Part shown: positions 9,853 through 61,378 of the stretch, piece by piece
How the letters are laid out: every line of letters starts with the position of its first letter
Position numbering within the stretch: position 1 is the stretch's first letter
Source: Malania oleifera
Taxonomy: Eukaryota; Streptophyta; Magnoliopsida; Santalales; Ximeniaceae
Reading direction: 5' to 3'
NCBI RefSeq assembly: GCF_029873635.1
Contig: NC_080418.1
Coordinates: 149,661,748-149,725,747, forward strand
Length of the DNA stretch: 64,000 bases
Program-made: the position numbers and the translations under genes
The notes under the pieces: model-generated
Seen by the model: the letters and a program-made list of their open reading frames with translations, nothing else
The model's database searches: none
Told to the model about the DNA's origin: nothing

Positions 9853-12602
9853 TCACATCAGAGGAATTGAAGCAAGAAACATTGCTAGAACCAAAAATCC
9901 AAGGGGAACTTGCAGGATCGAACTGCCTGCGGTGGCACTCTCCGGTCCAAATGCAGCAGGTGTGACTCCCCCACTTGTGTTAGACTTGACACTGTTTGAA
10001 AACAACACATGTTAGAGGCCAGAGCTTAGGAGTTAAAAGTTTGTTCTGGTGGTAAGGAGCAGAGTTCTCTACTTGTTTGAATGAAGAAAAGACTAAAATA
10101 AAAGTTTGAACTATGATAAATTCAAGTTCTCACCTCCCCGTAAAAATGCACGTCCCATTACCTGCAAAGGGGGAACCACGCACATAGGTATCAGATGTCA
10201 AGAATAAAAGCCGGATAGAAAAAGAAATTTGCAAATTTTCATGATTGGAGAAAGTAACTGAACAAGATGTCTGACAATAAAAAAGAACGCATCACTTTGA
10301 AGAACTTCATTTCCCTTTATAAAAAAATGGATGCATTTAGGAAAAAAAACTGCATAGTGTCGACTATTTAAGATTTCAAGGCTTAGATTTGGAATTGTGT
10401 ATTTGGATAGAATTAAAAGTATATTGAATTCCGTCATTAGCATTGAATTTTATCCAAATACACAACATCAAATCCAAGGCTCTAAATTCACATTTCCAAA
10501 CACTGTTTAAAAGTTGAGAGACACAATAGTTCCCAAATGAAGCTCGGGATGGTTGGCAACTAATCAATGAGAAATACTAGGGAGGAATGGCTCCTCCACA
10601 TGATATTTGGAACCCACTGATCACAGGCTGTTATATTAAATCTGGATCCATTAAAGTGGTCTAGGAACCATCACAGCAAACGCATACCCCTCACTTGAAA
10701 AGGGAAAAAGGTGGGGTGGGGGAGAAGGGGATCAAGTGCCAATGTGGCATCATGTGATTGGTGGATTCTAAATCCCATGTAAAGGTATCTCTTAAGTATT
10801 AGTGCCACTTCTGTTGCCATAACTGCGATCAAACCAAGTTTTTTGTAGATAGAATTTGCAGATAGAAAGTATTAACCCACACCTCCCCCCCGCCCCCAAA
10901 ACCCCGAAAAAACACCCATGGGCTAGGGAAAAAAAGAATAGGGGAAAAAAGTTGGCTCACATGCTCAATGACTCCAAGAAATTCACTAAGAAAACATTAT
11001 GTGAACTTACTTGGATCTACAGTGGTTGTTGTGGCAGCACCATCAAAGTCACAGGTTCCACCAACAGCATGTTTTTTCTGATAGTAATCATTAAAAGCAA
11101 AAGAAGCATGGTTCTGGAGAGTATTGGGAGAATAACATGGCTGTCCTGCTTGAATAGCACTGCAGTCAGCCTGCCCTTGCCCACAAGCCCAACTGAGCCC
11201 ATTTTGCAGCTTGGTGGAATCTGCATCTTCTTTTGCCACACAGAAAACCACAGATGAATTCCCTGTAATTTGGTCAGAGGTATTCAACACCAGAGGGTAA
11301 ACAGCAGACCCATTGGTGAAAAGCAAGCCCCAGTTCTTCTCTGAAACCGGCCCAGGTCTCTTGTCCTCATTGAATAACTCATAAATGTAAGTGTTAACAG
11401 GTATATTTGGCTGAAAAGGAGTACCTGAATCATTTAAAACCCGTCGAATCAAATTAGTATTGAAGATCTTAGCATTTTCTACAGTAGCATCGGGTTCATT
11501 AGCTCCACCAAGCCATGGCCAGCCAGATTCCGTCACAACAATTGGGATCCCAGAAAAATTGAAAGCTTGTATAGAGTAATAAGTTGCATCCACCATAGCA
11601 TCAAACATGCCATTATAATGATAAAGTGTGTTTGGGTCAACAACCTGCTTTACTGAGGAAACTGCCTTAAAAAGAGCATACTCAATTGTGAAAATGCCAT
11701 TTCCGTTGGTGTATCCATAATATGGGTAAGCATTTAACATGTAAAAGGAATTTGTGTTCTTCAAAAACTGAAGAAGCTGGTAAATTGTGGAGTTCCATGT
11801 AGAATTGAAGGAAGCAGCAGATGGGGGGAAAGGCTTAGGGATAATGTCCATAGATTGAGGGGTTGAAACTTTGACCTGAAAATTTAAATTTGATGCAACT
11901 AGGGCTTTATGAAGGTAATTCATGGCAAGAACCAGTGCAGGGGCAGCATGAGGAATTGAAGAAAGAACCTCACTGCCAACAGCAATGGCTGTGATGTTGG
12001 TTGAAGGCAGGTGAGCTGCAACATTCTTATTAATCCATGCTGCCGCTGCTGCCCGTGATTCTCCGATCCCTAAGACTTCCTCATTGGTCACACTGACCAT
12101 GACTTCAATCCCAGTCCTTGAAAGGCCATTCAACATGTCAGCATTAGCATCAAAAAGACGCACATGAGTTATCTGATGTGCTTTAAGGATCGCAACGACA
12201 TCTTGAGCTGATGGAAGGTTGGAAACATCAGTCCCAATGTTTATTCCTACAAATGCACCTACAAGGACAAGAACATGGTTTAGAAAATTAGCAAGAAAGA
12301 TCAAGATATTCACTGCATTAGGTAGGAAACATCAGTTCCGAAGTTTATTCTTGCAAATGCAAACAGGATTGATAGTCACTTCTATTAAGCCTGAAGGGAT
12401 AAACCTCACATGCACATTTGAAACAGTTTACAAATAAAATTACTTCAAAACACTTCATACGAGGGAAAATAGATATGGGGATTCCCCTGACCACAGACAA
12501 ATAATATAAGTATCGAAATCCAGATAATAACTTACCAAGTGCTCTGGAAAACATCCCAGCTAGGAGCAGAAACAAACTTCCAAGCCATCTTTTGGGCATC
12601 AT
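9853..12602 (-). CDS. GPI-anchored glucan endo-1,3-beta-glucosidase (GH17 plus X8/CBM43 domain)
   Basis: Hydrolyses internal beta-1,3-glucan (callose) bonds at the plasma membrane, cell wall or plasmodesmata; this function is known for the family. Coding exons are 12536-12602, 11011-12258, 10134-10161 and 9853-9991. All introns are GT-AG and in phase, giving 493 residues, close to the usual ~500. Residues 1-22 form a hydrophobic signal peptide (MMPKRWLGSLFLLLAG...). The GH17 barrel starts at GAFVGINIGTD. The acid/base glutamate is about E119 in AVGSEV and the nucleophile about E266 in VTESGWP. The X8 domain begins near C362 (FCVAKEDAD) and keeps its cysteines. The C terminus (VPLGFLVLAMFLASIPLM) after a small-residue stretch is a GPI-attachment signal. 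The 28-base exon encodes most of the NGTCIFTG turn. The first of two adjacent ATGs was chosen. The closest family resemblance is Arabidopsis glucan endo-1,3-beta-glucosidase 3 (from memory). Confidence 0.93.
10374..10494. mobile_element. Palindromic MITE-like element in GH17 intron
   Basis: Lies in the intron between coding exons 2 and 3. The 13-mer gtgtatttggata on the left reappears as its exact complement (tatccaaatacac) on the right, inside longer imperfect arms. The centre contains ttgaattccg. It looks like a foldback MITE. Confidence 0.6.
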
Positions 12603-23099: not shown

Positions 23100-26000
23100 T
23101 CACTCACTAGGAGATTCGTCCCTGTTCGGTTCCCTAGAGTATTCTAGGCTGGGGCTGTGGCTCGGACTCCTACTCCGGCTCTGGCTTCTGACTGGACTTT
23201 CACCAGGGCTCCTTGAACCATTTTCAATCGGAGAGTGTGAGCGTGAGTACGACCTCTCTCGACTGTATCGGGAATGTGATCTCTCTCGACTGTACCTCTT
23301 ACCTTGGGGGGAGATGGACCTACCTCAAAATGAAAGACCAGATCAGTGTCTTGGAGGCAAAAGAAGCCCATTATGGGAAGGTAGTGAGTAAAACTTTTTA
23401 TAAAAATTCACTTGTGTGTGAATGTGAAAAAAGACTTAGTCCTAACAGGCAAAATGCAGCATCACCAACTTGATACCCCGACACCAAGTAGGAAAACATT
23501 TGCACACAAGAGAATGGGAATTATAATGGAAGCGTATTTATTACATACTTTGAATAATGCCTCCGTTTAGGAGAAGGGGAGTAGTAGTCGCGGCTGCGGG
23601 ACCGAGATCTTGCATAGCGTGGGGGTGGAGAACGGGAATACCGACGAGGAGATCTCCTTCGATCATAAAACCGTCCCCTGCAGCAGCACAAAGAAAAAGG
23701 AGAAATATGACTACCACAATGCTCAATAAAAACAATTTATGTGCAGTACCAACATTGGAATTATTAGAAAATGTCAGTGATGAATGAATAAGAAAATCTT
23801 TATGATAAAAACATTTATATTATAGCAGACCAAAGACAACTTTAAATAAAGCTTCAATCTGTGAAAAAACTGGCTGGCCTCATTAGAGGGTCAAGCAAAC
23901 CAACCTTGTAAGATGTTATAGAACCAAACCAAAAACAGTAACTGTAATACATGTACGAGGGAAGATGGAAATGATGTCGTTTCATGGGAATCTTGATCAG
24001 GATCTAATAAGTCTAATTTTGACTTTGCACCTAAAAAATGACCTAATACCAAGACAAGCATTCTCATTTGGATAAATTAAAAGAATACTTCAAAAAATAA
24101 AAGAATATAATTACATTTTATGAATTCTCATTTGGATAAATTAAAAGAATAGAATTTCAATTATTCCCACTTGTGTAAATTAAAAGGGCATTCTTTTTTT
24201 TTTAATGATAAGAGTGATTCTTTTGTAATCAACTCAAATATCATAATTCATTTTAAAGAGAACATTTGTCCGTTCAAGTATAAACAGTTAAATATATATC
24301 AGGAAACAGCAAGAGTACACATACATGGCATCAACAAGCTCCACTGTGCCTTATCTTTCTAAAGAGAGCACTTGATTAAAACTAGATTTTCTCTCTCTCA
24401 ACTTTGTAAATGTTAAAAATCCCCTTTTAATGTTGAATGTCCATTTCCATTCAGTTCAATCTTTTGCACGCACTAGGTTGAAATTTAATGTCAGAGAATT
24501 CAGTTACATTTTGTTCCAAGTTCTAAAAAGCTCAAAAATGCCTCTATAACCCAATCAAGTAAAATGATCAAAAAGTACTGTTAAGGTTTTCAGCAAAATG
24601 GGGAAATTGTTTAAAAGATTGTTCATGCCTATCAAGAACAAATTGCAAAATTTCAACTTCATAGAAATTTTTTTGGACAAAAAAAAGAAAGGGAGGAGGA
24701 AAAAAATCAGGAATAGATGAGGAAAAATGTACCTCACTCGTTCCCTTGCCCTCATATCAGCAGGTTTTTTCCTATTCTCCTCTGCAAATACAACTGTCAA
24801 TTCTCTTCCATTAAGAATTTGACCATCCATTTGATATTTGGCTTCTGCAGCATCAGCTGGATCAACATATTGCACAAAACCAAATCCTCGAGGCTCCCTG
24901 CCAGATAAGGCAATAAAAAAACAAACAAAACAAAACAAAATACATGCTGTTAAAAAAGAGGTTGAGGGAAAGTAAAATACTAAGACCCCTTAACTGCGTA
25001 CGCCATTAACCTTTGCATCAATTAAATTTGGCAAAATAATCCCCAGATATATGGAAGGTCATGATAAGCACGTAAAAGCAAGTGCTTGGCTGCTGACCTT
25101 GCAAGTGTCAATTTTAAGATGACTTGAAATTCTTCAAGACTTGAAATCTTCACAATGTATTCAAAACCAAGACTTGACTTCAAGACTTGAGATCTTCACA
25201 ATGTATTCAAACTCAACTTCCTTCCCATCTTCACTACCATTAACATCACCTTCAACAGAACTCTTATTACTTGATTGATGTCTTCATAACTTTAATTTCA
25301 CTGTTATAACTCAAGAACTTTAATAAAAACGCCCAATTTGATAATACAACATATGATCATTTAGGGGAAGCCCCCCAGCGACAAAGCAGAGTTCTTTAAT
25401 GAAGAAAAGCAAATAGAAAGGAGGGATGGAAATTGATTTCATGAATCCATGTGACAAAAGAAACCAAAAAAGATAAAATTAAAAATAAATCAAAATAATT
25501 CAAGGATCCATGTTAACATAAGAAAAAAAAGATGCAAGTTCTTTTTAAACAAAAAAATATTAACGAAGAAAACAAAAAAAAAGAGTGTAAAATTCAAACT
25601 AAACCAACAAAATTAAGTACATATAGACATATATGTATATACATATAGAAAACCTTCACACCCATGGGAAGGTCAGTCATTTTGGCAACCTCACAGAAGT
25701 CAGAGCATTTAGCCAACAAGTTCTATATAGTTAGTAGACATGCTCACCCAGTGTAATAGTCCCTAGGCAAGTAAATGTCCTTGAGAGGACCAAACTGCCC
25801 AAACGGCCTCCGAAGGTCTTCCGGCCTGCATTACAGCATAAATTCAAGAATATAAGTGGTGAATCAGTTGAGAAGAATACGCTAACAAAAACTGAAATAT
25901 ACAGAACTTGAACAACAACATTTCCATGTCGTGAAAAAGCTTATCCCTACATCAGAAGTCCACAAGAATATGTTAACAAAAACTGATTAACTGAAATATA

Positions 26001-29000
26001 ACAGCATTCAAACAACAACATACCCATATTGTAGAAAAGCTTCTCTACATCATCCACAAGGATAAAAAGTTAACGCAAATTACCACATTCAATTTAAACA
26101 CACAGTATTGCTCCTAATAAGGCAAGTACACGGTAAAACATAATAATATAAATGGATAGTTACAGATACATGCACTTATAATACACCCACAAAAGGAGAA
26201 ATTCCTCTCAAGTTCAATCAAACATAATGATATAAGGGTACATTTGGTTTGCCTCCTAGGCAGGGCTGGGCTATGCTAGGCTAATGGCTCTTAGCCCATG
26301 TTTGGTATAGTACATAGGTAGAATGAGACTGGCCAAGAAGGGGAGGCTTGGCCCATTTGTGTGTAATATGGTTGGCCATTTCCACCACCCACCACCAAAA
26401 CAAGTCAGTCCTGGCTAAGTCATGATCTGTCCAAATTGAATAATATCTTCTCCATCCTGACACCCCAACACAAGCTATCCTCCCTCAAACCTTCTGTTCA
26501 TCTGCCTTCAACGAGGAATTCCTCAATTGCGTTGATCATCTAGTGGCTCACTGTCGTCTTACCCAACAAGGTTAGCCTCCCCTCTCTTCCTCCCTCACAC
26601 TCTCTTTCTGGCCAGATATAGAAACATTTTGTACTCAGAACTGTGCACAAATGACAAATATGCCCATTATGGCCATGAAAGCCTCTATTGCATAACCAAA
26701 TTGACAAAGAAGGCGATGTGTGAAGGAAATTGTCTGAAAATCGATATGTTGTTCAATCAAAGAAGGCAAGTGCACAATTACCAATTATGTCTACCATCCC
26801 ATTCAAATCTCAAGACGACCTTCTTGCTTTTCCATTCTGGATCCAAATTCCGGCAATCATTCTCCACCAAAAATTCTCTAGGGAGAAAGTGAAGAGAGAA
26901 AAAAAGGAACTCTAGACCAAGAAACGAAGGGAACCACAAGCAAGGAAAATTGGGGTCATAAAATGTAAACACCTTACTAATACCACAAGCTTAGAGCTCA
27001 TAGTCTGCCATCCTCTCCATTTGAGCTCCATATCAAAAATTTGAACAAGCCTTAGCAGTCCAGGGTGTCACAATCGGAAACCCTTTCTCAAACTGTTTTG
27101 TGTAGGAAATCCTTTCTAGAACTGTTTTGAGCTTGATTAAAGAATGTGGAGATGGTATCTTAAAGTCAAAATCTAACATCTAAAATAACAATTTTATGCT
27201 TTATTTTGCGAAGGGGTATTTTGGTCTCTTAAATGATTACCCTATTCAAAGAAAAAAAAAAAAAAGCAATTACAAAAAATTGGAACGATGTCTCACTTTC
27301 TCTCTTGTCCCCTCTCTCTTCTCCCCTCTCACAAAACAATCTCTCCCTCTCAAATGTACAGCAATATGGAGTCTTATGCAGCAGGTCATGCTGTATCAGT
27401 TGATCCAGATCAGAGGAAAATCTTTTCGATCTGCGCATGGATAAGGTTGGGGAGCTCTCTTCTTTGCTTGTGGTTGAGAATAACGTGATGCATAGCAGAT
27501 GGATTAGGTTTTCTAGTAAGGTAGTTTCTTGGTTTGCTAATGGGTTGTTAGTGTTCAGCCAGATGAAAAGGAGGTGTTGGAGTTTTCGTAAGGGTAGTAT
27601 GCAGTATTGGAAGTCAATTAGATGGACAAAGGTTGGGAAAGTTTATAGAGTTAGGGTTGAGACGGAAAGGAAGGAAATTTTCTGTGTTCAATCCCAGTGG
27701 TGGAAAGGGTGAGGGTTGGCAAAACTTTGCAAGCAACTTCTGCGAGATGGCAAAGGAATTTTGGAAGGAATCTGAAGCTGTAGATGCAGATGACGCAACA
27801 CATCCCCGCTCATGGAGTCAGGCAGTGCTGGGAGGCAAAATGGGCAAAGCAGTGGATTGTAGTAGCCAATCTTGCTCTGGAAATCAGGGTATGGTGGTTG
27901 GAAAAGAAGATCCGTGTTGTTGGTGTGGATGTATGATGCAGTAGAAAGAACCTGGGTTTCTGAAGTCAGCATTTATTGCAGACCAACCAAAATTATTTGA
28001 TCAGACTGGCAAGGAAAGCTAGAGTTTTGGCAGAAGCGGGGATCTCCTCAGTTTCAGTCAGGGCTGCATTTGAAGAGACTGCAAAGAGGAATGGGCCAAG
28101 CTATATTTTTATGGTTTTTGATCTGGCTCAAATAATAGAAAAAGAAGGCAACCTTTTATAATGCGCGCCAATTATTTGGTCAGGCCCAATTTATAGGTAA
28201 GTAAGAAGTGGACTCAAAGGGAGAGACTGCTCCTTTGGGCTTCATGCATATCGGCCAAGGGGGAGGCAAGCTTATGTCTTAGATAATAGTGATCCAGGTA
28301 CTTCATTGCTAGATACCAAAAATGGGCAGGCCCAAAATACTATTTCTAGAAACCAGAAATCGAGTATTGATAAGGACACTCTACCTTTTGATAGTACAAT
28401 ACATTCTCAGTCTATAGATTTCCAAGTTATGAGTCGAATTGATCAAGATTTGGAACAAACTAGGATTAGCAGTAGTGAAGATTTGAAACAAGATTGAGGT
28501 GTTAAAAATGCAGCAAGTTTTGAAGAGGGATTAGAAAGTGATGTGGAAAAGACTAAAAGATTAGAAGTTGATTTGGGGGCCTTCTATGGGTACTGAAATG
28601 AGGAAGGTGTTTGAAGATAAGAGAGAAGAATCTGGTGAGTCAGTGCCAAAGTTATTAAAAGAGATTCTAAAAAAAAATCCTAGTATAGTGGAAGATTCTC
28701 ATGCTAAGGAGGCTGAATGTAGTAATTGGGTAAGTTAAGAAAAAAAAGGGAAATAAATGGGAGACTTCTCAGATTCAAAAAGTAATCATATTAGTGAGTT
28801 TGATTGTGGTAGGGGGTTGTTGTTGGATGAGATTCAAGAACAATATGGACACGTTTCAAATTCTTTTGAAGAGAGAGGGGATTTATACTATCCATCCACC
28901 CCCATTGGAAGGCCTTGAGGGAGTTCTATATTTGATTATGATGGTCTCATTAACAATTCACAGAGAAAGGATGGAATTTTGCCCATGGAGGAGGTTCCTA

Positions 29001-29913
29001 AGAAGGACTTAGAAGCTCAAGATCTTTCGGATAAAATGGGATAAAAGTTGACTGGTTTTGGAGAAAATGTAATGCACATGGTGGCAAAATTTGAAAGTTG
29101 AAGGGACAAAGGGAATTAGCAAAATTGAAGAGGTCAAAAATTATGACAGGGAGGGTCGAAAAGGGGTTTCCTTGGTTTATATTTTGTAGTGTTTTTTGGT
29201 TTTGCTCTTTTTTTTTTTCATTTTTCTTTTTCTTTGGGGTTTTCTTGTTTTTATTTGGTGTTCTTGTCCTGCACATTGTACCATCCTTTCTTTCTATCTA
29301 TCTAATATAGTTTCTTTTTTATCCCAAAAAAGAAATTGATAGCCTATTCAATGGGTGTCACAGTCCAGAGATGGGATGGGATTATAATCATAGTCAAGCC
29401 AGTCCAGTTCTATAAGCCTTAGCCATTGATCCAAATGCACTCCAAATGGGTATTGAGCAATTGGGAGGATGTTTGAAGGGCAATTTCATTTTATGCGAAT
29501 TCTACAAATGGATCACATTGAACAAAATAAAACACAGAACATATTTTGAAAAATAAACATAAATGAAGACATAATTATGCAAAGCAATGTAAACTTCCAC
29601 ACCAAAATCTACGATACTGGAAGGATTATAACTAAAACAATAACAATTTCTGCGAATAAAAAAAAAATTGATGAAAACACAAGATATTATATTGCAGTAA
29701 CAATAACATTAAGTTTAGCTTAAAGTAGGGGAAAAACCAAATGGGCGAAGAAAAGTTATTGAAACCTAACCTACAATCATGGCGAAGGTTACGAACTAAA
29801 AGACTGGTAGGAAGATCTCTACCCCGACCTCCATAGCGACCCCTGGGGCTAGGGCTTCGGCCTCTTCTGCCATATCCCCTGGGCGGTGATGGACTATAAC
29901 TCCTTCCCCTCAT
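23100..29913 (-). CDS. SCL33: SC35-like SR splicing factor (SCL33/SCL30A type)
   Basis: Nuclear serine/arginine-rich pre-mRNA splicing factor that binds RNA through one RRM and contacts the spliceosome through its RS tail (family knowledge). Coding exons are 29771-29913, 25748-25825, 24733-24897, 23549-23677 and 23100-23319. All are GT-AG and in phase, giving 244 residues. The N-terminal extension (MRGRSYSPSPPRGYGRRGRS) is the plant SCL hallmark and matches SCL33/SCL30A rather than SCL30 or SCL28. The RRM runs from about residue 36 (TSLLVRNLRHDC, RNP2) through GEPRGFGFVQYVDP (RNP1) to about 115. RS/SR dipeptides, YYSPSP and SRSRSRSPS fill the tail. The ATG is the first in the transcript after the UTR acceptor at 29933-29934. 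Intron lengths are about 3.9 kb, 850, 1,055 and 229 bases. SCL33 and SCL30A cannot be told apart here. Confidence 0.93.
25132..25285 (-). promoter_or_regulatory. GAAG-rich cluster in intron 2 of the SCL33-like gene
   Basis: On the transcribed strand nine GAAG tetramers fall within about 155 bases (CTTC at 25132, 25148, 25178, 25194, 25217, 25221, 25229, 25250 and 25282). A ~26-base phrase ending in tcttcacaatgtattcaaa is duplicated 46 bases apart (25140 and 25186). In Arabidopsis SCL33, GAAG repeats in the long third intron are reported to bind SCL33 and control its own splicing. Counting the 5' UTR intron, this is also the third intron. The functional link is inference. Confidence 0.5.
26231..29445. 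mobile_element. Possible Harbinger-type MITE split by a LINE
   Basis: The left end at 26231 (taagggtacatttggtttgc) and a region near 29365-29445 have imperfectly complementary ends. The right region contains gatgggatgggattataatc and, read in complement, gtgcatttggatcaatgg, both typical of Tourist/Harbinger-type MITEs. Removing the LINE between them leaves about 1.1 kb. The ends are only partly convincing. Confidence 0.3.
27251..29332 (+). mobile_element. L1-type LINE remnant, ORF1-like region and 3' end
   Basis: Sits in the first coding intron of the SCL33-like gene, in the opposite orientation. Frames at about 27437-27712, 27633-27944 and 27976-28161 carry a pattern like plant L1 ORF1 (SRWIRFSSKVVSWFANG, then a KGEGWQNFASNFCEMAKEF-type segment). 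ORF2 (endonuclease, reverse transcriptase) is absent, so there is a large internal deletion. The 3' end (tctatctaatatagtttc, T-run, tatcccaaaaaag) resembles plant L1 tails. An imperfect ~18-bp duplication brackets it: aaatgattaccctattcaa (27231) against aaattgatagcctattcaa (29333). ORF1 is interrupted by stops and shifts. Confidence 0.6.
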
Positions 29914-29932
29914 TTGTAATGAATTGTTTCGT

Positions 29933-32475
29933 CTATATATAATTCAAAATGCACGAGTAGAACTTCAAGTAAACAAGAAGCATAAAAATGTAAAACAAAT
30001 GTCTACATCAAGTAACATGTAACGAACATGAGATACATGAATCACTAGATTCAAAGGGAAAAATCTTAAATGGACTAACCTGCACAAATTCAAATAAAAA
30101 GAAACAAGGAAAATATTGCTTTTTCAACACATTAATAATTCAACAACAGAATATAGACATAAAACAGAATATCAAAATTTTACATCTAAATCAAAGCATA
30201 TTTGCAGAAACCCTTAGTACTGTTCTAAGCTGAAAAGTTTTCACCAAAACTGCGTGATATATTTATTTGCTTCAAGATACTATGGTTTATGAATCGATAC
30301 ATATGAAGCTACTCCCAAGAAAATAGAATAAATGCATTGATGTGTTGTTAACATTTTCCATGGTAATTGTTGCCCCAATGTTTCATCAGCACTTTTGAAG
30401 AAGACAACAAATTTGTGATAATCTTAATAGTCAAAAGATATTTCATTCACTCAATAAAGTTGTTGTGAACATTTGCTTAATATCCACCATCTGTTATGTG
30501 GACATAAAATTTCAGTTAATTGGATAATTTTATTTTAGTATCTAGTTATGCTAAAATCATGGCTAAGATCCTTTAATTTTAGTCATCTCATTTTGTCGTT
30601 TTGGATGAATTGTACATCACATAAAGAAGTTTCTATTGCTCTATGATTTTGGACAACCTCAAACAGATTTGAGAAATCTAGAATCAGATAATCATTGACT
30701 TTGCATTACTTTAACATCCACATATTATTATTGTTTAATTATAGGATTTTTTTCAAGACTATTTAGCTCCAATGAAACAATTTTTTATTTGCAATAAATA
30801 AAAATTGATCAACGATCCATGATTACTCATTATCTTGTTTTAAATGTGAATCTGACTATGGAAAGGTCTGAAGTGTCTTGTCTCTTGAATGAAATAAGAT
30901 ATACTGCAACCCTAACAAATTACTGATGGGACTTAGAAGCTTAGGGATTTTCATATCTGAGTGCTCTTTTTTAATAACAAAACATTTGAATGATTTTTAT
31001 TTTAATCTAAAATATTTGCAATCGATACACACCAAATATTTGGGGCAAATGCTTGATTAGGACCAAACAACTAGCACACTTTCTGAATAAGGATCTCTAA
31101 CAAGGAGAGTTTGAGAAAGCTTACTTTATGATGCTCAAAATTTGAAGAACAACATAGACACATCTTATACTGGGGTGGAGGTGCAAATAGACAGTCTTTG
31201 GTGTGGCCAGGATAGGATCCATGTGGAAGGGTGTTCTTCATTAGTTTGTGGGAAAACAAATCATAACGTTAGCATGATCTTTATATCAGCCTAAATAACT
31301 TGATCTTCACAATTTTCCAAGAAATTCAAGTATTAGTAAATTCTGAATAAGAATCTCAGGGAGTGGACTTTGGCCTTGACTTTGAGCCAAGCCACTATAA
31401 TTAGTAATTTCTTTCTTATCCCCAACTCTTTTTTATGCATTGTTATATTAGAGCATGATCCTCTATATGCTTCATATTTAATTAATTTAAGCATAAAAAT
31501 GAATTCTCTTTTAAGCATCGTCCCAATACGTAACCTCTCCCCTCTTGGATTGCTAATAGGGCAAACTGCTACCTTACATTATCCAGTAGCATCCATGCAT
31601 TTCTCTTTGAGAAGTAAAATGCTTATTTTTATTCTGAGTTGAGTTTCATACACTCCATTTTCCCAAAAAATGTGAAAATACATTCCTTTTGATTCTTCTC
31701 CTTACCTCACTGCCAAAAACAATAACATTTAAAATTAACTACAACCATCAAATGGAACTTTATCCCACACAGAGTAGTGGAATACAAGTCACACAACAAG
31801 TATACATACAAGACTATGAACAGTGGGTCTCATAAATAAGCAAATTCTTCACATATGTCAAGCAATAAAACACCAAGAAAAAAAATATTGCAGGGTATGG
31901 TGTATGAGTCAGCTAAAACCTTGGAATCCAGAGCACCGAAAAGTTTTTATAAAACAATGGATTAGCTGGAATGGGGAGATAAAAGATCAAGCCGAGATAT
32001 CTGTAATGTAGGCCATCGAGAGTGTAATTTTTTAAGTAAACGCAATGCTTGCAGTAAAAACCCTACACCCTACAGAGCGAACACACATTCTAAAACCTAC
32101 AACGGACTATTTCAGTTGAGATATCAAATGCATGCAAATATCCTTAAATGCCCTAAAGAAATACAAGTACACAAAACAAATCAAACAAATCTGGGTTTTT
32201 GTTAATTTCTCCAGCAGAGAAATCAAACCCCCGCGATTTCCCCAACCAGTCATCTTACCCTACGTTTCTCGAGTTTACGATAACAAGCAATAACAGGCGA
32301 TACTTGTAAAATTAGCCATGAAAAACAAAAAACCCAGATTTCATAAGCCCACAAGATTCCCAACCCACCTCTCCCAAAAAGAAAAAAAGGGAAAAAGAAA
32401 TCAAGAAAGAGAGAAGGAAATCAACCATGTTTGTCAAACAGCATCATCCACATTACAACTTACTGAAATCCCACA

Positions 32476-41432: not shown

Positions 41433-44400
41433 ATGGAGGAACAATTTATACTTAGAGTTCCGCCTTCTGTCTCTGAGCGCATAGACCGGCTATTGAGTGA
41501 GAATGCCTCTTCTTCTGAAGATAAATCCCTGGATTTGTCCTTTTCTGGTATCTATTTTCTCCAAGTATTGTTTTACAATTTTTTCATTTTTTACTGTTAT
41601 TGTTAATATGATCTCATTGGTGCTTCTGTATATGTGCACTATAAATTTACTTTTGTTTCTGCATGAGTTTATATCTTAACGTGATTTGCAATTTATCTTT
41701 CTTAGTGCATGCAAATATTAATCACACTGAGAAGCAAGCAGTGCATCTTTGATGCATGTAAATAGTTTTTGCAATTTTTTGTTATTGTATGCAAAATTTG
41801 TAACTGCATATTATATGAAAAAGTTGTCTCTGTGTTTGCACCAGGCTGAAGCTTTTAAATCTCTCTTTATATTCTTTGCTATTTATTTATTTGTCTGTTG
41901 TTCCTTTGGTTTGGTAGGAGGATCTATTATCCTCCACCCCTTGTAAATTATTTTCTCTCTTGATAATGAATTTATTTTTCTATAAAAAATATTTATTTAT
42001 TTATTAATTAAGGATAACAATATACTTTGCAGTTGACATGGTCAATTGGGGTTTTTCTCTGTCAAAAATGATGGTTTAGAAAGGTTTTGTGCTCCTTTAA
42101 AGGAGCTGGATAAGAGGGTGTTTGAAGTTGACAAATATGTTTATGATTGTGAATAGATAACCTAGAGAATGGTTTGGGGCATCTTGGAGGTCAAGGCAGG
42201 GGGATCCCTTAACAACTGTTTACTTCATGTTTTAAATTGATTGATCTTGGATGTGCAGGGTTTAGGGGTGATTAAAGGTTTAACACTTACAGTAGGTGGG
42301 AATGGGGTGGAGATGTCACACCTTAAGTTTGCTTATGATACTATTTTTTTTCCCCCCTAGAGGATAACATTGAGAAATCCATAAGGTTATTATTTTGTAT
42401 AGAGCTTTTGAAAAGATTTTAGGATTAAAAATTAACATGTCTAAGAGTATGGTGGATGGCACTAATTTTGATCATAGTGATATAGAGGGGTTCAAGGCTT
42501 TGGTTGATTATCTTTCTTTAGCCATTTTTATCCTATTTAGTTTTCACCCTTTGGGTTACCCTACATCTGTGGCTTTTTGGTATCCATTGGTCAAGAGAGT
42601 GTGTAGGAGGTTGGAGGGGTTGGTAGAGGATGTTCTTATCTCTAAGAGAGAAAGCAGTGTGGGTCATTTCGGTTTGGTTCATTTTTAGACAAAACTGAAA
42701 ACTGAATTGAACCATTCAATTTTCTAGTTTTATGAGAAACGAAACAAAACTAAAAATGAAATGAGGAAGAATCAACAAACTGATTTTTGAACTGTGCAGG
42801 TCAGTTCGGTTTGGTTCAGTTTTGGACAAAACTGAAGACTGAGTTTGAACCATTCAATTTTCTAGTTTTATGAGAAGCAAAACAAAACTAAAAATGAAAT
42901 GAGGAAGAATCAACAAACTGATTTTTGAACTATTCGGTTATGGTTTGATTAGTTTTTTAACCAATTCAATGTTCTTCCTAGTTCCTAGTGATTTTGAGCA
43001 TTTCTCCATTCAAAACTGAAAGGGAAATCTCAACATACAATTCAATCAATCTCAAGGCAAGTTATTGGGGCTTACTTGCAGAACAACCAATTTTCCCCCA
43101 ATGCCATTGTTAAAGTGTTGTGAAAATTGGAAGACCTAATCACAATGATAGGTCTCTCCCTCTATTTATAATATATTCCAAGTACATAATAATGATCATA
43201 ACCATGGTTGTTAGAATCTTATGATTCATGATTTGATTCATACAAATCATATCAGTTCCGTAGCAAATCGATTCAAATCTTACTAGTGAATCTTAAAAAA
43301 AATTTGAATCATTGCCGATTTTATTGATTCACCTTGTGAATCTAACAAATCGATCCAAATCTATCAATTCACACAATTCTGGAGCTGTCATATCCTGACA
43401 GACTTGACCAGTTTAAAACTCCAAAAACATTTTTTTTATTTGCTTTTATTTTTACACACTTAACTTATGTTCCTTGTCTACATCAGTTTTGTTCCAGAAA
43501 ATAGGAGAAAATAGAACTTTAGGTCTTATGTTGCCTTTCAAAACCATTCTTCACTCTAAGAGGAGTATAGTATTTCGATATTGAGAAGAAGGGCGGAGTA
43601 TAGTTCTTTCAGTGGTTTGTTCAATTATTATCTTTATTTTAGCTTAATTATTTTTTTTCCTTTTTAATCCGAGAATTAATATGCATGAAATATTATTTTT
43701 AATTGTTGATAAATATCAAAAGTTCAATTTTTTGTGATCTTTTCTTGATTCCTTCCTTAAACAGCATAAAGTTCATTTTTTTATTAACATTTCCTAACTC
43801 ATTCCTTATTTTTCATTTGTTTAAGGAAAGCATACACATGAATATGATTTTTTTAATGTCAAAATTAAATGTATCTTACTATTTTGCTTGTTGTTCATAT
43901 ATCAATGTATGCATTCCATCTAGAATTGGTTTTGAAAATTTTGTACCGAATCTTATGATTCGATTCGATTCTCAATTCTCAATTCCCAAATTTGGAATTT
44001 TAATTCATGATTTGAATCTCGATTTGACAACTATGTGCATAATACCCTCACCAACTCTTAATTACTTGCGTAGTGAATATTACTAGTTGACCAATAACCA
44101 ATAACCTTTACCACTCAAGCTGGAGCATAGATATCACATGCTCCTAACATGTATTGATTAACTTGAGCAATGAGCACCCCCTAAAGTTTTAGCGAACGTC
44201 AAGAAGTTGGTGTTCATACTTCACCATGAGTGGTTTCGATGTGCTTTTGCACAACTTTGTCTTGGACAAAATGACATTCATCTTCGATAATCAATATCCT
44301 TCATTCTCTTGTGGAAGATTGGATCAGAGGCAATGTAAATGGTAGCTTATTTATCACACATCAACTCCATCAACTGAGATTGTAGGAAACCAAGTTCTTC

Positions 44401-47400
44401 AAACACGTTTTTTTAGACAAACCAACTAACGTGTAGTGCATAACATTGCGTTATATTTAGACTTGGCACTCAATTGGGCCGCAACAGTTTGTTTTTTACT
44501 CTTCCAAGAAACGAGATTACCAACAAATACATGATGCCTGGTTGTGGATCACCTATCACAGGGTGGCTTAGCGCAATGTGCATCTGTATAACCATGAATG
44601 CAGTTGCGATGCGGATTCTAATACAAAAGATCTCTTCCGTTGCACCTTTGAGATACTGCAAGATACAAATGCAGCAACATTTTCTGGGAGAATTTAGGAA
44701 ATAACTCACAACACTTTCTGCAAAAGATAAGTTTGATTGCAGTTAGCAACAAATCACCAGCATCTGGTAATAATTTGCAGATCTGGTCCATAGGTGTATA
44801 GCGTTCTTGGATTCCAACAACATAGTCTCATCTAAAAGACCTAGAATATGCTTTCTTTGTGACAAGACATCCCTGCATGAAATCTGCTTGCTTTTGTACC
44901 CAAGAAATATTTTTGTGGCCCAAGTCTTTGGTGTGAAACTTACTTTGGAGAAACTGCTTCAGACTCTAGAGTGATGGTCCTAAGAACCCTAAAACCTTGA
45001 AGTCATCATCGTGATGATGTACAATATTGCGAATGCTCTCCATCAAAATTAACACACTCTTCACCAAAATCATTGCTGAAAACATATCTTGCCACTGTCT
45101 CTTGTGTCAACAATGCTCCAGAGCTCCTTTTGAAAAACTAACTTCATAATTGCATTCAGAGGTACTAATTAGCTTACCCCTTAAATTTTATATCGGCTGC
45201 CGATGCTTGCACTCTAACTTGCTGGTCACCTTCTGGTAGGGCAATGCCATGCACTGATGCATGACGAGTTTTCTGGAAAAGTTCTTCACTCCAATTTGGT
45301 TTGGATGGTCTTGGTTGTCTGGGGCTATAGAACATGTTTTTGAAGCAAAAAAAGGCTTGTGGGTGCTCTTGTGTTTGTTTATAGGTTAGAATTGTTTGAT
45401 CTTGGATGATTTTGTTTGCTCATTACTATCTTATGTGAATGTTTTGCATCTCTGCTAAGGTGGCATTTATTGATTATGTGTGATTGACACTTGTCTAAAG
45501 CATGTGTTGCTATCCAGTATATCTCAGTGATGGAATCGATGAACCCCAAGTCTTGTTTCCTCTATGTTGTCACAAATTACAACTAAAAATCTATTTGGTG
45601 ACAACTACTTGTAGTGGTTCAAGCCAGTCAAGATCTTGACCAGCCTAGGCAAGCTCAAACACCTTCTTTAGGCGTCGATTGTTTCCTTATTGTGCAACCC
45701 AATGACCCTTCAAACTGCTAGAAGGTGTATGCACCTTGATATGTCTTAAGGAGATACAAGATTATGCTAAAGTGTTGTATTCTAGTAATTTGACTTGTAT
45801 ATATGGTTTGTTGTCAGTGTATTTTCAACTAAAACAACAGGAAAACAAGTGTCACTGAGCACTTTGTAAAGATGAAGCGAACTAATGAGGAACCAGCATT
45901 GTCCAACTCATAGTAGTACATGTCTATTAGATGCCAAGACAGAGGGAGCATATGATTGTTCTTTGGGTCCAAGCTTGATTGAAGCCTAAGTTTGAAACAG
46001 TCCAATTTTAGATTCTTGGTAATACAGAGTTGCCTTCTTTAGCTGCTGTTTACCCGCTTGTACTTTGTACTTCTTCTGGCACTCATTCTGTGCCCTTGGT
46101 CTGCATGTCCTGGTTTCTGGTTCTGAAAAGTTTGTTTTTGCCGCGCAAAGTAGTTCTAGGGGCATTTAAGTAATCATGGAGGAAGGGATAGACGTGGGAA
46201 AGGCAGGGGTGTGGGATTCTATTGAGTGGTGTTGGCATCTCTCATGGTAGACTTCCACAAGTAGTCAATGCAGCCACCACAGATTCTACCTCTACTAGTT
46301 GAGCCACTGGAGATCAGCATACCATATCTGTCTCATTTGAAGAGTATATAAAGTTCTCGATCTTTCAACTACACCCCTTGATCGGATGGGTTACCGTACA
46401 GTTTGTGTGTCATCCAGAATCTTTCCCACTAGTTTTTTGTGTCATAGATTCCATTGTCCCGATCATATGACAGGTACAACCAATATATTTTCTGCCCTGC
46501 AGTTCAACTTACCTCGTGTTAGTCTTGCCAATGGGTCTATTACTACATTTAGGGGAATAGGGAGAGTTAACCCTACTTCATCCATCTCTTTTCTTTTGCT
46601 CTGTATTCCTTCACTTTTAATCTCATGTCTGTTAGCAAGATGACAAAATCAATGAATTGTTCCATAGCATTTTTCTCATTCTATTGTCATTTGGGATTTG
46701 AAGATGCAGAAGATGATTGGTGGAGGACATGTGGTTAGTGGACTTCTCTACTTTTGAGTCATTGTCTCCTTCTACTACTTTTACTGCTGTTGCCACACTG
46801 CTTCAAATCCATTTCATCTTGGTCATCCTTAGTTGGAGAAGACTAGTTTGTGGCTTTGGTTGTGTGTCAGTTTGGAGTGTGAATCTTGTTAGTTAGGAAA
46901 GCATCATCATGATGCATTTGCTTCTTGAGTCAATACATAGGTTGTTATCGCTAGCTTCTTATGGTGTTTGGTGTCCTAGTCATGTCAAAAGTTGAGGTTC
47001 TACCCAAAAGTGGCTTGGCCTTATTTAATAAAAGACTGTTCCAAGTTATTTAATATGTTTGGTGCCTTTTGTTCCAAAATAACGACTTAGTTAAATTTAC
47101 CTACCTACCAACTATTTCGTAGTGAGAATGCCGAAGGATGCTTTAGCACCCAACTCAGTACCTATACGACTAGATCTAGAATGATTCTTTACTCATCTTG
47201 TGCCCACATTCCCCAACAAAATGGGGTTGTAGAGTGGAAAAATATGCATATTCTTGAAGTCACTTGTACCTTGTTGTATCAAATGAATATACTCAAAGTT
47301 TATGGCCTGATGTGCTCATTGCTTGCTCCCTTATCAACAGAATGCCATCCTCTGTCCTTGGTGATGTGATAGCTAATCTTGTTCTCCTTCATGCAGCTCC

Positions 47401-50400
47401 ATTGTTCCCACTGCCTCCTTGTATATTTGGATGAGTCCCCATTATTAGCTCCAGGGTAGGTAATTTGGATCCTTGTGTCGTTCCTTTATCTCTGATGATG
47501 TTACCTTCTTTGAGGCTACCCCATATTAGTATTGACTACTAGAGTTTTGCCGATCATGATATGTCCTTTCCTTTGCCTAGTTGTCTTCTAAGTTTTCATC
47601 TTGGTTGAACCCTCTAGTCACTTGGATATATACTCAAAGTTTTATGGCCTGATGTGCTCAGTGCTTGCTCCCTTATCAACAGAATACCATCCTCTGTCCT
47701 TAGTGATGAGATAGCTAATCTTGTTCTCCTTCACGCAGCTCCATTGTTCCCACTGCCTCCTTGTATATTTGGATGAGCCCTATGTCCATTATTAGCTCCA
47801 GGGTAGGTAATTTGGATTCTTGTGTTGTTCCTTTATCTCTAATGATGTTAACTTATTTGAGGCTACACCATATTACTATTGACTACTAGAGTTTTGCCGA
47901 TCATGATATGTCCTTTCCTTTGCCTAGTCATCTTCTAAGTTTTCATCTTGGTTGAACCCTCTAGCACTTGGATCATCTAATCTGCAAGCGCACATGTGAC
48001 AAAGGAGGAGAGATTCCTCTAGATCCTAATGTCACTCCTTTGGATTCCTCGTGTGGTGATAGTCTCCTGTGATATTGATTATTGACCTACTTATTGTTGT
48101 TTGGAAAGGTTAACACACATGTACCCAATATCCAATTTCTAACTTTGTTATGATTTTTTCACCTTTGTAATATTTTTTTATTGCTATGTCATTTGTTTCC
48201 CTTTCCAAGTATGTGTTAGAAGCCTTATCCCTCTTTGGGTGGAGAGCTACAATGGAGGAAGTGATGTGCCACTTCCTGCTTGTAAGTCTGGTTTTGTTGT
48301 TATTGGGCGTATATTGTGAAGGTCGATCTTGTTGGTTCTGTGCCTCGCCTTGTTGCCCAAGGCTATAGTCATATCTATGGTTTAGACTACAAGTTCTTCT
48401 TGGTTGCCAAAATTACACAGTTCGTTTGTTTCTCTCTCATTGGCCATTGCATCAGTTAGATGTGAAGAATGCTTTCTTCCATTGGGATCTTAAGGAGGTC
48501 ACTATGGAGCAACCACATGAGCTTGTTGTTCAAGAGGAGTGAAGCTGGTCTCAAGGAGTCTCCTCAAGCATGGTTTGGCAGATTCAGTGCTATAGTACTT
48601 GATTTTGGCCTTTAGAGATGTGTGATAGCTCACTTTTTATTCTACCACCATACTACTGTTGGAAGGATTTCGCTGGTTGTCTACGTGAATGATATTGTTA
48701 TACTACTTATGATAGCTGGGGTATGCAACTAAAGGTTTGGAACCATTGAAACGCTTCTCAGGCATTAGAAGTATTGAGATCTCATATGGGAATTGTCCTG
48801 TAAGTATGTTATAGATCTTTCGGAGGAGACTGGATTTTGGCTTGAATAAATGAGCCAAGCCTGAACGTGACGACTTTGCTTATTTTAGCTCGTGAGTAGC
48901 TCTATTACAAGCTTGGTTGGTTTGATAATAGACTTGTTCGTGGGCTTGGATTAGGCTTAGATAGTGGGCTTGTTTAGTCTTAAAAGGCGTGGGCTGCTGG
49001 GCATGGGCTTGTTTTGCTCAATTTCAGCTGATGTGTAACTTATGAAACAAATCAAACAAAAACCCTAGTTTCAGTTCTCTTCTCATATAGTCATTCTGCT
49101 TCTTCCAGCTCCTCTTCCCCCCCTGGCTCTTCAATCTTGCATCTCCTTGTTGCTCTCCCTGCTCCTCTTGGCAATTCCTGCATGTTGCGGTCTCGTCTCA
49201 GGCTCTCGTCTCCCCTCTCGTCTCTGCAACTGGTGAGTTTATAGAATGCATTTCAGATTGCTTTAGTATAATAGCCCAAAGTTAGATTCCCTCTCATCAC
49301 TCGTTACTTAGATGTTGCTATTTCAGATTTATATTAGATATTTAATGCTTTTTCAATGGATGAATAAGAAAAGCGGAATGGCTGCTGCCCACCCAAAATG
49401 CTGCCTGATTGCTTCAAACTTGATGGCAACTTCATGCTACACTATACACACATAAACATAGTGTAGTCTGCCTATCCAAACTTGAACATGTTAAGGCTTG
49501 GCTTGGCTCTGCTCATTTGCTGCCTTAGTTGAGCCACCCTCCGACAGAAGATCCACAACCTGACATTGTGTTTTGTTGGTGCTAACTTGGCATCCTTAGA
49601 ACCAAGCTTTGGTTGCACAGTCGAGCCGATTCCTATATGACATCTGAATTGATTTGGCTGAAGAACATGTTAGAAGAAATTTGTTTTCCACAGTCGTGGC
49701 CTATGGAGTTGATTTGTGATAAGCAGGTAGTTATTTCATATTGTCTCCAATCTGGGTTTTCATGTGAGGACAAAATTTACTGGGGTTGATTGTCATTTTG
49801 TTCAGGAGGAACTTGTGCAGAAGCTCATTACAACCTCTCACTTTAAGTGAGAATATCAGCTAGCCGATTCACTTACCAGACCTTTAGGGATGCCCGGGTA
49901 GAGATCATTTGTAACAAGCTAGGAGGATGTGATATCTATGTTCCAGCTTGAGGGGGGAGTGATACTGGTTTCTTAGTGTGTTGTTGTTGTTCGTTAGTGT
50001 GAGTTGATAAGGGTATGATGGTCACATTATAATGTACATGATATATTATAAAGAGATAGGGAGACCTATCGGTAAGTTGGTTCTCACATTTCAACAAATT
50101 CTTTTATTCTCTTCTTCTCTCTGTGATATCTGATTTCCTCTTGTCATGGTTGAATGACCAAATTACCCAGTTTGATTTGCTGTTAACAATTATTTTGTTT
50201 TTTGGCACAATAATTTTTATATATTCAGGATATTGAACTTGAATATGTTGCAGAGGATGGGAGGAGTGGTACATTCGTCATTGGCAATGATCATTTTCCA
50301 GCAGCCCTCTTGGATCTTCCTTGCATTGTGGAGTCGTACAAAACATATGATGATAATGTGCTAATTAAAACTGCTGACATTGGTCAAGTAGGACACTGCA

Positions 50401-51395
50401 ATGATATTAATGTTCCTAAGAATAGAAAGTGAGCACCTCTAAAAACTTTTGGTTTTTAACAGATGATTATGGTAAGAGAAGAAGGTGATGCTGCTCCAGA
50501 TGATGTGGAGTATAGACATGGCCTTACTCCTCCCATGAGGGATGCTCGGAAACGCAGATTTCGTAGGGAGCCAGATCTAAATGTACAGATACTTTATCAG
50601 ACGTAATTTATATATTTTTTTAATGAAAAAATGCCAACTTGGTGCAACAGAGAGAGAATTTTTTATTTTATGTTATTTATCTTTCAACAAATGAGCATGT
50701 GTAGGAGGAAACGAATGAGGGATGCCACTATCATGTTTTTTCCCTTTTTGTCTAGATTTATTGTACTGGCTGTGATTTTCTAACCCCTCCTTTTTTTGGC
50801 AGCCTGAGCTTGTGCGGCGTGTTGAGAAAGATCTTTCAAATATAATGGCTGGTGGAACAGCTGAAAATGTTGATATCCTTGCATGTTATATTAGTAACTC
50901 TACTTTTGCTATTACCCTTTCAGATCACAATGGCAAACTTGGCAACTGGTTAAATAATTTGCTGCAAGATTTTATTGGCTTCTCAAAGATTCATTATCTG
51001 AACTCTTTTTTTTTTTTTTTTGGGGGGGGTGGTGTGGTTGTGCTTTTGTTTAGTGCTCGATCATGTGAAAACAGAAGTAATTGTATCCTTGTGTGATTGA
51101 TACAAGCACACGTCTTTATCACAAGCCTTTCTGCTTAGCATAACGGCTACTTTGGCATTTAGGGCCCAGATTATATTAGATAATGCCCAAATTATATTAG
51201 ACCCTGATTGTTCCTTAACCGAGTAGCTCACATGTTGAAGCAGTTGAACAAGAGGAAGATGGTGATGAAAATGCTCGTAATGTGAATAAGAAAGCTGTGC
51301 CTGCACCTGCGCCAAAGCCTAAGGTTCCTGAAGCTGAAACTAATGCTGGGGAACCCGACAGAAGTGATTCCGACGAGTCTGATGATTCAATATAA
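41433..51395 (+). CDS. TAF7: Transcription initiation factor TFIID subunit 7
   Basis: TAF7 is a component of TFIID, which recognises core promoters for RNA polymerase II. Coding exons are 41433-41547, 50254-50387, 50463-50582, 50803-50872 and 51232-51395. They are all in phase and give 200 residues, against 203 for Arabidopsis TAF7 as I recall it. The start MEEQFILRVPPSVSERIDRL is the conserved opening of the TAFII55 domain. Further hallmarks are EDGRSGTFVIGN, ALLDLPCIVESYKTYDD, KTADIGQMIMV, YRHGLTPPMRDARKRRFRRE and a Lys/Pro then Asp/Ser-rich tail ending SDSDESDDSI. Intron 1 is about 8.7 kb and full of transposon remains. Introns 1-3 are GT-AG, while intron 4 is U12-type AT-AC. For exon 2 the acceptor ttgcag at 50253 keeps frame; an upstream tcag does not. 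The exons look intact, so the gene is probably functional. Confidence 0.95.
42060..42665 (+). mobile_element. L1-type LINE reverse-transcriptase fragment
   Basis: In TAF7 intron 1. Broken frames show RT signatures: an RQGDPL-like phrase near 42190, HLKFAYDTIFF near 42320 (the usual FADDT motif is altered to FAYDT) and FEKILGLKINMSKS (42410-42450). The fragment is truncated at both ends, with several stops and shifts. Confidence 0.65.
42668..42932. repeat. Two tandem copies, 137-bp period, ~95% alike
   Basis: ttcggtttggttca begins at 42668 and again at 42805. About 128 bases match with only a handful of differences, indicating a recent duplication inside TAF7 intron 1. Confidence 0.9.
43109..44117 (-). 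mobile_element. 3' LTR of a minus-strand copia element, split by a MITE
   Basis: The LTR runs leftward from about 44117, next to a ...cttgagtgg junction. Its other end (43109-43195, with tataaatagagggagagacc in complement) resembles the LTR at 49960-50096. About 840 bp of foreign DNA lies between these parts. Confidence 0.5.
43197..44045. mobile_element. MITE-like DNA element nested in a copia LTR
   Basis: The ends catggttgttagaatc (left) and, in complement, catagttgtcaaatcg (right) are imperfect inverted repeats. Subterminal text is full of gattcga/tgaatc phrases. It interrupts the copia LTR. Confidence 0.5.
44118..45250 (-). mobile_element. Ty1/copia pol remnant (RT end, RNase H), minus strand, broken
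   Basis: Reading the minus strand downward shows late reverse transcriptase (about 45050-44700) and the RNase H region with SWKSKKQT near 44500. The C-terminal GACDIYAPA-type ending lies near 44130. A fossil with several breaks, inside TAF7 intron 1. Confidence 0.7.
47289..47960. repeat. ~337-bp tandem duplication inside the copia fossil
   Basis: tatactcaaagttt begins at about 47289 and again at about 47627. The copies are closely similar throughout, including gatcatgatatgtcctttcc. Confidence 0.9.
48848..49518. mobile_element. hAT-like element with a leader-like interior, nested in copia
   Basis: The left end (aatgagccaagcctgaac) and right end in complement (aatgagcagagccaagcc) are imperfect inverted repeats. 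The interior (about 49060-49230) contains aaaaccctag and a CT-rich leader-like stretch ending ctctgcaactg before gtgagttt, a plausible splice donor. No transposase frame remains. Confidence 0.5.
49960..50096 (+). mobile_element. 3' LTR of the plus-strand copia element
   Basis: Starts TGATACTGG directly after the aggggggag polypurine tract. It contains the tatattataaag TATA-like stretch and an end near tttcaaca. It resembles the minus-strand copia LTR at 43109-43195. The exact right end is uncertain. Confidence 0.55.
50873..51231 (+). other. U12-type AT-AC intron of TAF7
   Basis: The 5' splice site is ATATCCTT (50873-50880). A branch-site consensus TTCCTTAAC lies at 51211-51219, and the intron ends ...AC at 51231, twelve bases after it. 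All three match minor-spliceosome consensus exactly. Splicing here keeps frame (GTT G|AT GTT GAA, giving NVDVEAVEQEEDG). I found no GT-AG alternative that keeps frame and the conserved GGTAENV segment. Confidence 0.9.
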
Positions 51396-59196: not shown

Positions 59197-61378
59197 ACAT
59201 TTATGTTTATATATATAACTTTTCTTCCACTTGGTTGTAAATGGTTAACAATGGTCTATAAATGCAGAAATTAAGGCTCCATTTTTGGCATCAAGAGAGC
59301 TAAGGACATCTCAAAATCATTTTTTCCTATTAATTGGAGTTTTAAATAAACCCATAGAGCATAAGTATTATACACTGAGACATAGCAAAATATTTGAAGT
59401 CAAGAGTTGGCTTCCCAAATCATGCATATAGTATATAACTATTTTTTTTATTTTTTATTTTAGGTATGGCTATCTATGCATGTAGAGTTTTAACTCTACA
59501 ATAAGGATACTAGACCTAAACTTGAAATACACAAGCTCTAATTACAAAAATAATGTTTTAAAATATATAATTTAGACGATATACATCTTGTCCTTTCGAA
59601 ATCCTCAGTGGGCGTGAGAGCCTTGTGCACGAGCATTAATTTTATTTTAAAATTTAGGGTTTCACAAAGTGTGTCCTTTCTAAAAGTACATGTCAATAAA
59701 TTCCATAAGGAGAATGAATCAAAAGACTAATCATTCATCTCCCCTTGATTTGAAGGGTTAAAACTTAGTCAAGGGGGAAAAGATAATGGTAAGGCAACAA
59801 ATGAGATGTCCAAATCATATATATATGCAAATCCCAAAGGGACCAAACAGGGAAGTCTAGTTTGCCAATTGATTCCATTCTTTGGAAAAGTTAGAAAAGG
59901 GCAGAGAGAAAAGAGATGACTGAGGAAAAATAGAAGATGGCCGGCTGTGGGCTGCTCCCCCATATGATGCATCCTAGCACTTTCTTGGTTTGACGGCTGA
60001 CTCGTATAAACTTGCTTGGTAAGCATTGCTCCTTGTTTGGATTTTGAATTGACTAGCTGGTTGTGGTTTGCTGATTCATTTCTCTATTATTTTTTATTTT
60101 TTTTGCTTTCTTGGGGATTACATTTGCCATTTGGATGGTTCCAGAATGGGTATTTTCTCCATTAAAAATTGCAAAAAAAGTATTATGGTTCTCCTAAGCT
60201 CTTGTAGTTGTTGCAATTTGCCAAAACCCAAAGGCCCGTTTGGAACTCAGAAAGTTTTAGCGCAACGAAAGGAAAATGTGAAGAACCCTCCTTTTTATGT
60301 TTGGCTATTAAAAAAATGGGAAGGAAAATAAAAAATATGTTAGATCTATAAACAAAATTTTAATTTCACACATCATTAGTATTTTATTTTATTTTTTAAA
60401 AATTTTTAGTAGTGTTAAAATAAACTTTTATTTTTAACAGTATTTAATAGAGAATGAGAATATAAGAGAAGATAAATTTTCTTTTTTTTTTTCCCTCACG
60501 TAAAATCGTTGATCCAAACAGACCCAAAAAGTTTTTTCTCACAGTGCAAACCCTCTAGATTTCAACTTGAGATCACAATTTAAAATCTCAACTTCTTAAT
60601 TAATACCATTTGGGTTTCCCAATCGAGACCCATATTTCATTTTTGTTGTGCGATAAATATGCATAAGTTAAACTTTTAAAACGGTAAAAGTAGTTTGGTA
60701 AGAAAGTAGGTTATCTTATTGAATAGTTAAGTATTAGTGAAGCTTTAAATGTGTAACTATGAAAGGATGAATGTGCCATTGTTTAGTCTTTAACACACAT
60801 GAAGAATATATTAGAAATAATTTCTGGAGTTGTATCGCTACCGAACTAAAGATTTAGTTTAATTGTAGAAAATAGTTTTTATTTTTTATATCTTTCTAAA
60901 TAATTATAAAAATGTCAACATATTTTGTAGTTTTTCAAAATTAATATTAAAAAGGTAGAAAATGAAGGATTTTTTTAGCTGTAAAAAATATTTTTTATTT
61001 TTTATTTTTAGATTTTTGAATAAGTACAAAATCATGCACTATTTTCTAGCTTTTTTTAAAAAAATTATATGAGAATATAAAAATATAAGAAACAATAATT
61101 TTTTTAACTTTCATATTTAAATTTAAATAATTACAAAATAGGGTTGTTCAAAGACTTGATGATTCACGGGGTTCTGCATTTCAGACCAACTGTCGCATTT
61201 TATGCGCTCTTCAACTATGCGAGAGTCGAAATATCTATTGTCAGTAGTCGTTATGATTCAAAAGCAAACATATCGCATTACACATTTTTACAAGTAAATA
61301 ATATCCAAACTTTTTACTAATTTTTAATTTTATTATAAAATATTGTAAACTTGAAAAATAAGATGTTTTTTTATTATT

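Follow-up and report, generated by a model that had tools for sequence, protein, structure and literature searches.

A complete gene lies on the + strand of the window, the 64-kb stretch of DNA that was analysed as a whole. Its five coding exons, when joined, make 603 bases, encoding 200 residues and a stop (Table 1). The spliced product matches Pfam TAFII55_N (PF04658) over residues 1-139 and profile positions 1-154 of 160, with an E value of 6.8e-35. When the 170-residue form without exon 1 was used as a query against solved structures, all three distinct sequences matched were TFIID subunit 7 (6.6e-13). As judged from its sequence, the gene is TAF7, and it hosts an intron with AT-AC ends.

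Table 1 Positions of the coding exons and introns of TAF7 and of the splice signals discussed in the text
Feature	Position	Strand	Description
Coding exon 1	41433..41547	+	Starts MEEQFILRVPPSVSERIDRLL
Intron 1	41548..50253	+	GT-AG, phase 1, 8706 bases; end picked by frame
Coding exon 2	50254..50387	+
Intron 2	50388..50462	+	GT-AG, phase 0, 75 bases
Coding exon 3	50463..50582	+
Intron 3	50583..50802	+	GT-AG, phase 0, 220 bases, strong pyrimidine tract
Coding exon 4	50803..50872	+	3' end is GGTAENV plus the first base of the following codon
Intron 4	50873..51231	+	Predicted U12-type AT-AC, phase 1, 359 bases, 63.2% A+T
U12-type 5' splice site of intron 4	50873..50880	+	ATATCCTT; 8/8 to consensus RTATCCTT
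Second U12-type 5' site	51083..51090	+	GTATCCTT; 210 bases downstream of the first, in frame
U12-type branch site of intron 4	51211..51219	+	TTCCTTAAC; 9/9 to TTCCTTRAY; probable branch A 51218 (or 51217)
3' splice site of intron 4	51230..51231	+	AC, 13 bases past A51218
Coding exon 5	51232..51395	+	Acidic tail and stop

Exon structure and genomic surroundings of TAF7

Three of the four coding introns have GT-AG ends, and intron 4, the fourth and last, has AT-AC ends. It is inserted after residue 146, just beyond the TAFII55_N match, and so stands between the conserved domain and an acidic tail (16 D/E and 6 K/R in the last 53 residues). Joining exon 4 to exon 5, from 50872 to 51232, gives ...GGTAENVDVEAVEQEEDG... 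in frame, with the stop at 51395. The end of intron 1 at 50253 was chosen because it keeps the frame; the AG at 50228 would instead lead to a stop two codons on. Exon 1 itself, which was absent from the initial annotation, sits upstream of exon 2 at a distance of 8.7 kb.

Intron 1 contains a near-tandem duplication of ~320 bases at 47299-47964, in which two adjoining families are 95-96% alike with a spacing of 342-347. By eye, this region looks like a retrotransposon remnant. Four ORFs of intron 1 (42374-42688, 43703-44086, 44470-44742 and 47091-47369) gave no match in Pfam.

Elsewhere in the window, retrotransposon integrase pieces with Integrase_H2C2 and SH3_Tf2-1, which we take to be Ty3-type, occur at 230-1288 (+), and a gene of the plant beta-1,3-glucanase type, with a glycosyl hydrolase family 17 and an X8 domain, at 10997-12331 (-). 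What looks like pieces of a putative SR-type splicing factor gene extends over 24555-29943 (-), with an RRM at 24555-24989 (Pfam) and an RS-like start at 29632-29943, recognized by eye and lacking a Pfam match. In Arabidopsis, SCL33 (At1g55310) presumably adjoins TAF7 (At1g55300); if so, an SR-type gene near TAF7 would represent an old gene neighbourhood. At gathering thresholds, Rfam matches the window in one place only, a degraded 5.8S rRNA-like stretch at 61105-61249 (-), which scores 66.1 bits, has 34% G+C and is decayed in its last third as judged by eye. It is probably a nuclear rDNA relic.

Splice signals of intron 4

Intron 4 was compared with the features of the U12 class given in the available text of PMC3584512, PMC5932401 and PMC2831892, and the 5' site was assessed as in that of PMC2846911. 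The intron starts with AT and ends with AC, and its removal keeps the reading frame. The available text of PMC5932401 gives the plant U12 branch site as TTCCTTRAY and links A at its upstream purine to efficient plant U12 splicing; this purine is A in intron 4. Counted to 51231, the branch is 13 bases from the 3' end if it is A51218 and 14 if it is A51217, compared with an optimum of 11-13 bases and with either A of the branch site usable, as described in the available text of PMC3584512. No distinct pyrimidine tract is present, the last 20 bases being TCCTTAACCGAGTAGCTCAC.

Sodium channel genes have AT-AC introns of the U2 type with G at +5 (PMC2831892, available text). Position +5 of intron 4 (50877) is C, which, as far as these sodium-channel examples go, speaks against the rare U2-type AT-AC intron. 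When the 5' site is scored as a U2 donor with an approximate matrix, it obtains -5.5 versus 3.4 to 6.3 for the other three TAF7 donors. Position +9 is G, which is less typical for the U12 class, as the consensus of U12-type 5' sites usually has T there. Also less typical is the position as the last coding intron, against the bias of minor introns to the 5' end of genes that the available text of PMC10639083 gives for 112 of 290 Streptophyta species.

How much of this could arise by chance was estimated with the whole signal set. By itself ATATCCTT is not rare, occurring five times in the window on both strands versus 4.75 expected, and TTCCTTRAY occurs once on the + strand (51211-51219) and five times on the - strand. 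The scan required [AG]TATCCTT, followed within 3 kb by TTCCTT[AG]A[CT] and then, 9-20 bases past the branch A, by AC where the donor starts with A, or AG where it starts with G. The 64 kb contains one full set on the + strand, namely intron 4, and none on the - strand. Shuffling the whole window 150 times and counting one strand produced 24 sets, spread over 17 of the shuffles, and shuffling 50803-51395, the 3' end of the gene, produced the set in 2 of 20,000, frame not being required in either test. A single set at some place in the 64 kb would be mildly surprising. That chance would place one so as to link two coding exons of a conserved gene with the frame kept is very unlikely.

From its letters, the last coding intron (50873-51231) of this intact plant gene for TAF7 almost certainly belongs to the AT-AC subtype of U12-type (minor) spliceosomal introns, and it is an ordinary member of a rare but well-known class. 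The initial annotation had called it a textbook case, and the intron agrees with that description in every sequence feature that could be tested: ATATCCTT, TTCCTTAAC and AC are in the places it had named, and the rank of last coding intron holds for the fourth of four in a five-exon gene.

Intron 4 also contains 16 T followed by 8 G at 51006-51029, a likely spot of sequencing or assembly error, and a direct repeat (51164-51180 and 51185-51201) without evident role. RNA structure was considered as well. The intron is not more stable than its shuffles (77 of 100 fold at least as well), and with a z of 0.71 versus shuffles a role for its RNA structure was dropped.

Alternative splicing choices around intron 4

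Splice pairs that keep the frame and the stop were enumerated for donors between 50806 and 51179 and ends between 50900 and 51329. There are 81 GT-AG, 47 GC-AG, 50 AT-AC, 103 AT-AG and 37 GT-AC pairs, and those that also retain GGTAENV and EQEEDG number 22, 12, 21, 28 and 16, respectively, the 21 AT-AC pairs including the proposed 50873-51231. The earlier claim that the AT-AC splice is the only one to preserve both the frame and GGTAENV...EQEEDG was thus overstated, as 22 GT-AG pairs do likewise. The alternative pairs fail on site quality, not on frame.

The 22 GT-AG pairs would allow an ordinary U2-type intron with other ends, by which TAF7 gains extra or changed residues from this stretch. 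Its best-scoring case is 51077-51243 with 64 extra residues, and its case without length change is 50885-51243. Some of the donors score well (6.2 and 5.7), the 6.2 of donor 51077 being on a par with TAF7's own donors. On the other hand, the 22 pairs share four 3' sites, which score -0.1 (51226), -0.3 (51243), -2.9 (51223) and -4.0 (51240), below the 0.7, 2.8 and 4.3 of TAF7's own three GT-AG introns, although these matrices are approximate and intron 1 (0.7) is little above the best of the rival sites (-0.1). Furthermore, all 22 donors are located inside the AT-AC intron, at 50885 or later, so that 27-76 residues are added in 18 of the pairs and 0-4 in the other four, and the 51077 form would translate the T/G homopolymer run as FFFFFGGGGVVV. 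A GT-AG intron would also leave the U12 signal set as an accident of the kind seen in 2 of 20,000 shuffles. The sum of the U12 signals, more than the splice-site score, decides for the AT-AC intron, and GT-AG splicing here is very improbable.

Another possibility is that intron 4 is spliced in two ways, from 50873 and from GTATCCTT at 51083, with the branch site and the AC end shared. This would be compatible with a U12-type AT-AC intron as the best explanation, and use of the 51083 donor would add 70 residues in frame. GTATCCTT is exactly 210 bases on, and the frame is open between the two donors. However, the frame match is a one-in-three event that needs no explanation, and donor 51083 with the AC end would make a GT-AC pair, a mixed type that appears disfavoured according to the available text of PMC3584512, where alternative splicing of U12 introns also appears almost absent. 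We give splicing in two forms very little credence, and GTATCCTT at 51083 is probably a decoy.

The open frame itself was evaluated by shuffling. The frame of exon 4 stays open into intron 4 until codon 74, the first stop being at 51094-51096, and intron shuffles were as open or more in 76 of 5,000 cases, or in 72 when ties were left out. This openness is mild, crosses the T/G homopolymer run and was noticed after the fact. The second donor and the open frame are probably due to chance.

Finally, a decaying TAF7 copy with U12 signals as relics might suit the 8.7-kb length of intron 1, but it is extremely unlikely with a coding sequence that is complete over 200 codons without a stop and a Pfam match that spans profile positions 1-154 of 160.

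Relation to known U12 introns and predicted minor-spliceosome dependence

With intron 4 taken as a U12-type AT-AC intron, its closest parallel is the U12-type AT-AC intron of plant CBP20, as described in the available text of PMC5932401. Both introns have AT-AC ends and a TTCCTTRAY-type branch site, their A+T is alike (about 65% for CBP20 U12 introns versus 63.2%), and both lie between a conserved core domain and a tail that is less conserved (PMC5932401). However, the CBP20 intron is present in the ten species compared, from bryophytes to seed plants, and was tested in mini-genes and in plants (PMC5932401), whereas the TAF7 intron comes from one sequence.

The AT-AC U12-type introns known from Arabidopsis and from other plants share these ends and signals (PMC7367187 and PMC5716242, available text). 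The AT-AC share of U12 introns is given as 26% in Arabidopsis, 23% in soybean, 22% in rice and 13% in maize (PMC7367187), and a lower figure of 4.8% is quoted from an earlier Arabidopsis study (PMC5932401). Arabidopsis U12 introns number 238 in U12DB and 292 in ERISdb (quoted in PMC7367187), a count in Arabidopsis Nd-1 gave 66 AT-AC pairs (PMC5716242), and AT-AC makes up 0.06% of all plant splice pairs (PMC6310983). By these published shares and counts, as far as the available texts give them, the AT-AC type is rare per genome and the class well described (PMC7367187, PMC5932401, PMC6310983).

Among the titles and abstract openings listed in a literature search, none described an AT-AC or U12-type intron for TAF7 of plants. 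In the accessible main text, the term 'TAF' is absent from PMC10639083, PMC2846911 and PMC2831892, and 'TFIID' from PMC7367187. Relatives of TAF7 were also sought outside plants. None was confirmed among 16 pattern-matching stretches in viral contigs and 152 in bacterial and archaeal genomes, and tblastn gave no match in plasmids, as would be expected because none of these sets is a plant collection.

Steps in the removal of intron 4 can be proposed from what is general to its class. The intron would be recognized by the U11/U12 di-snRNP, with U11 pairing with ATATCCTT and U12 pairing with TTCCTTAAC while the branch adenosine is left out. U6atac would then take over from U11, and catalysis would proceed with U6atac. 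Intron 4 would be released in lariat form, which would connect the TAFII55_N domain with the acidic tail, and its removal would be slower than that of the neighbouring introns. The cell should then require the minor spliceosome (U11, U12, U4atac and U6atac) to make full-length TAF7, just as for the rest of the genes that carry U12 introns, and this implies no special regulation. That TAF7 expression depends on this machinery would follow from the class, and regulation through intron 4 is something that we infer.

We conceived that intron 4 could act as a switch, where retention or use of 51083 yields a stable TAF7 and minor-spliceosome activity sets its form. The retained intron gives a predicted product of 220 residues. 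If the switch were true, TAFII55_N would be kept, and an intron-coded stretch would replace or precede the acidic tail. Provided that no intron lies in the 3' UTR, the last exon would contain the stop of the retained form, so that junction-dependent decay might spare the transcript. Such a switch is very improbable.

As for annotation, the first gene set that AUGUSTUS made ab initio for one Arabidopsis assembly contained no non-canonical introns (PMC5716242, available text). The remark in the initial annotation that GT-AG gene finders would mis-call this exon is a fair one, in agreement with that paper on the Arabidopsis assembly. Ab initio finders limited to GT-AG can be expected to mispredict the TAF7 tail.

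Intron 4 of TAF7 offers a clean, hand-checkable example for annotation, and with it a TFIID subunit joins the candidate genes expected to react to impairment of the minor spliceosome in plants.
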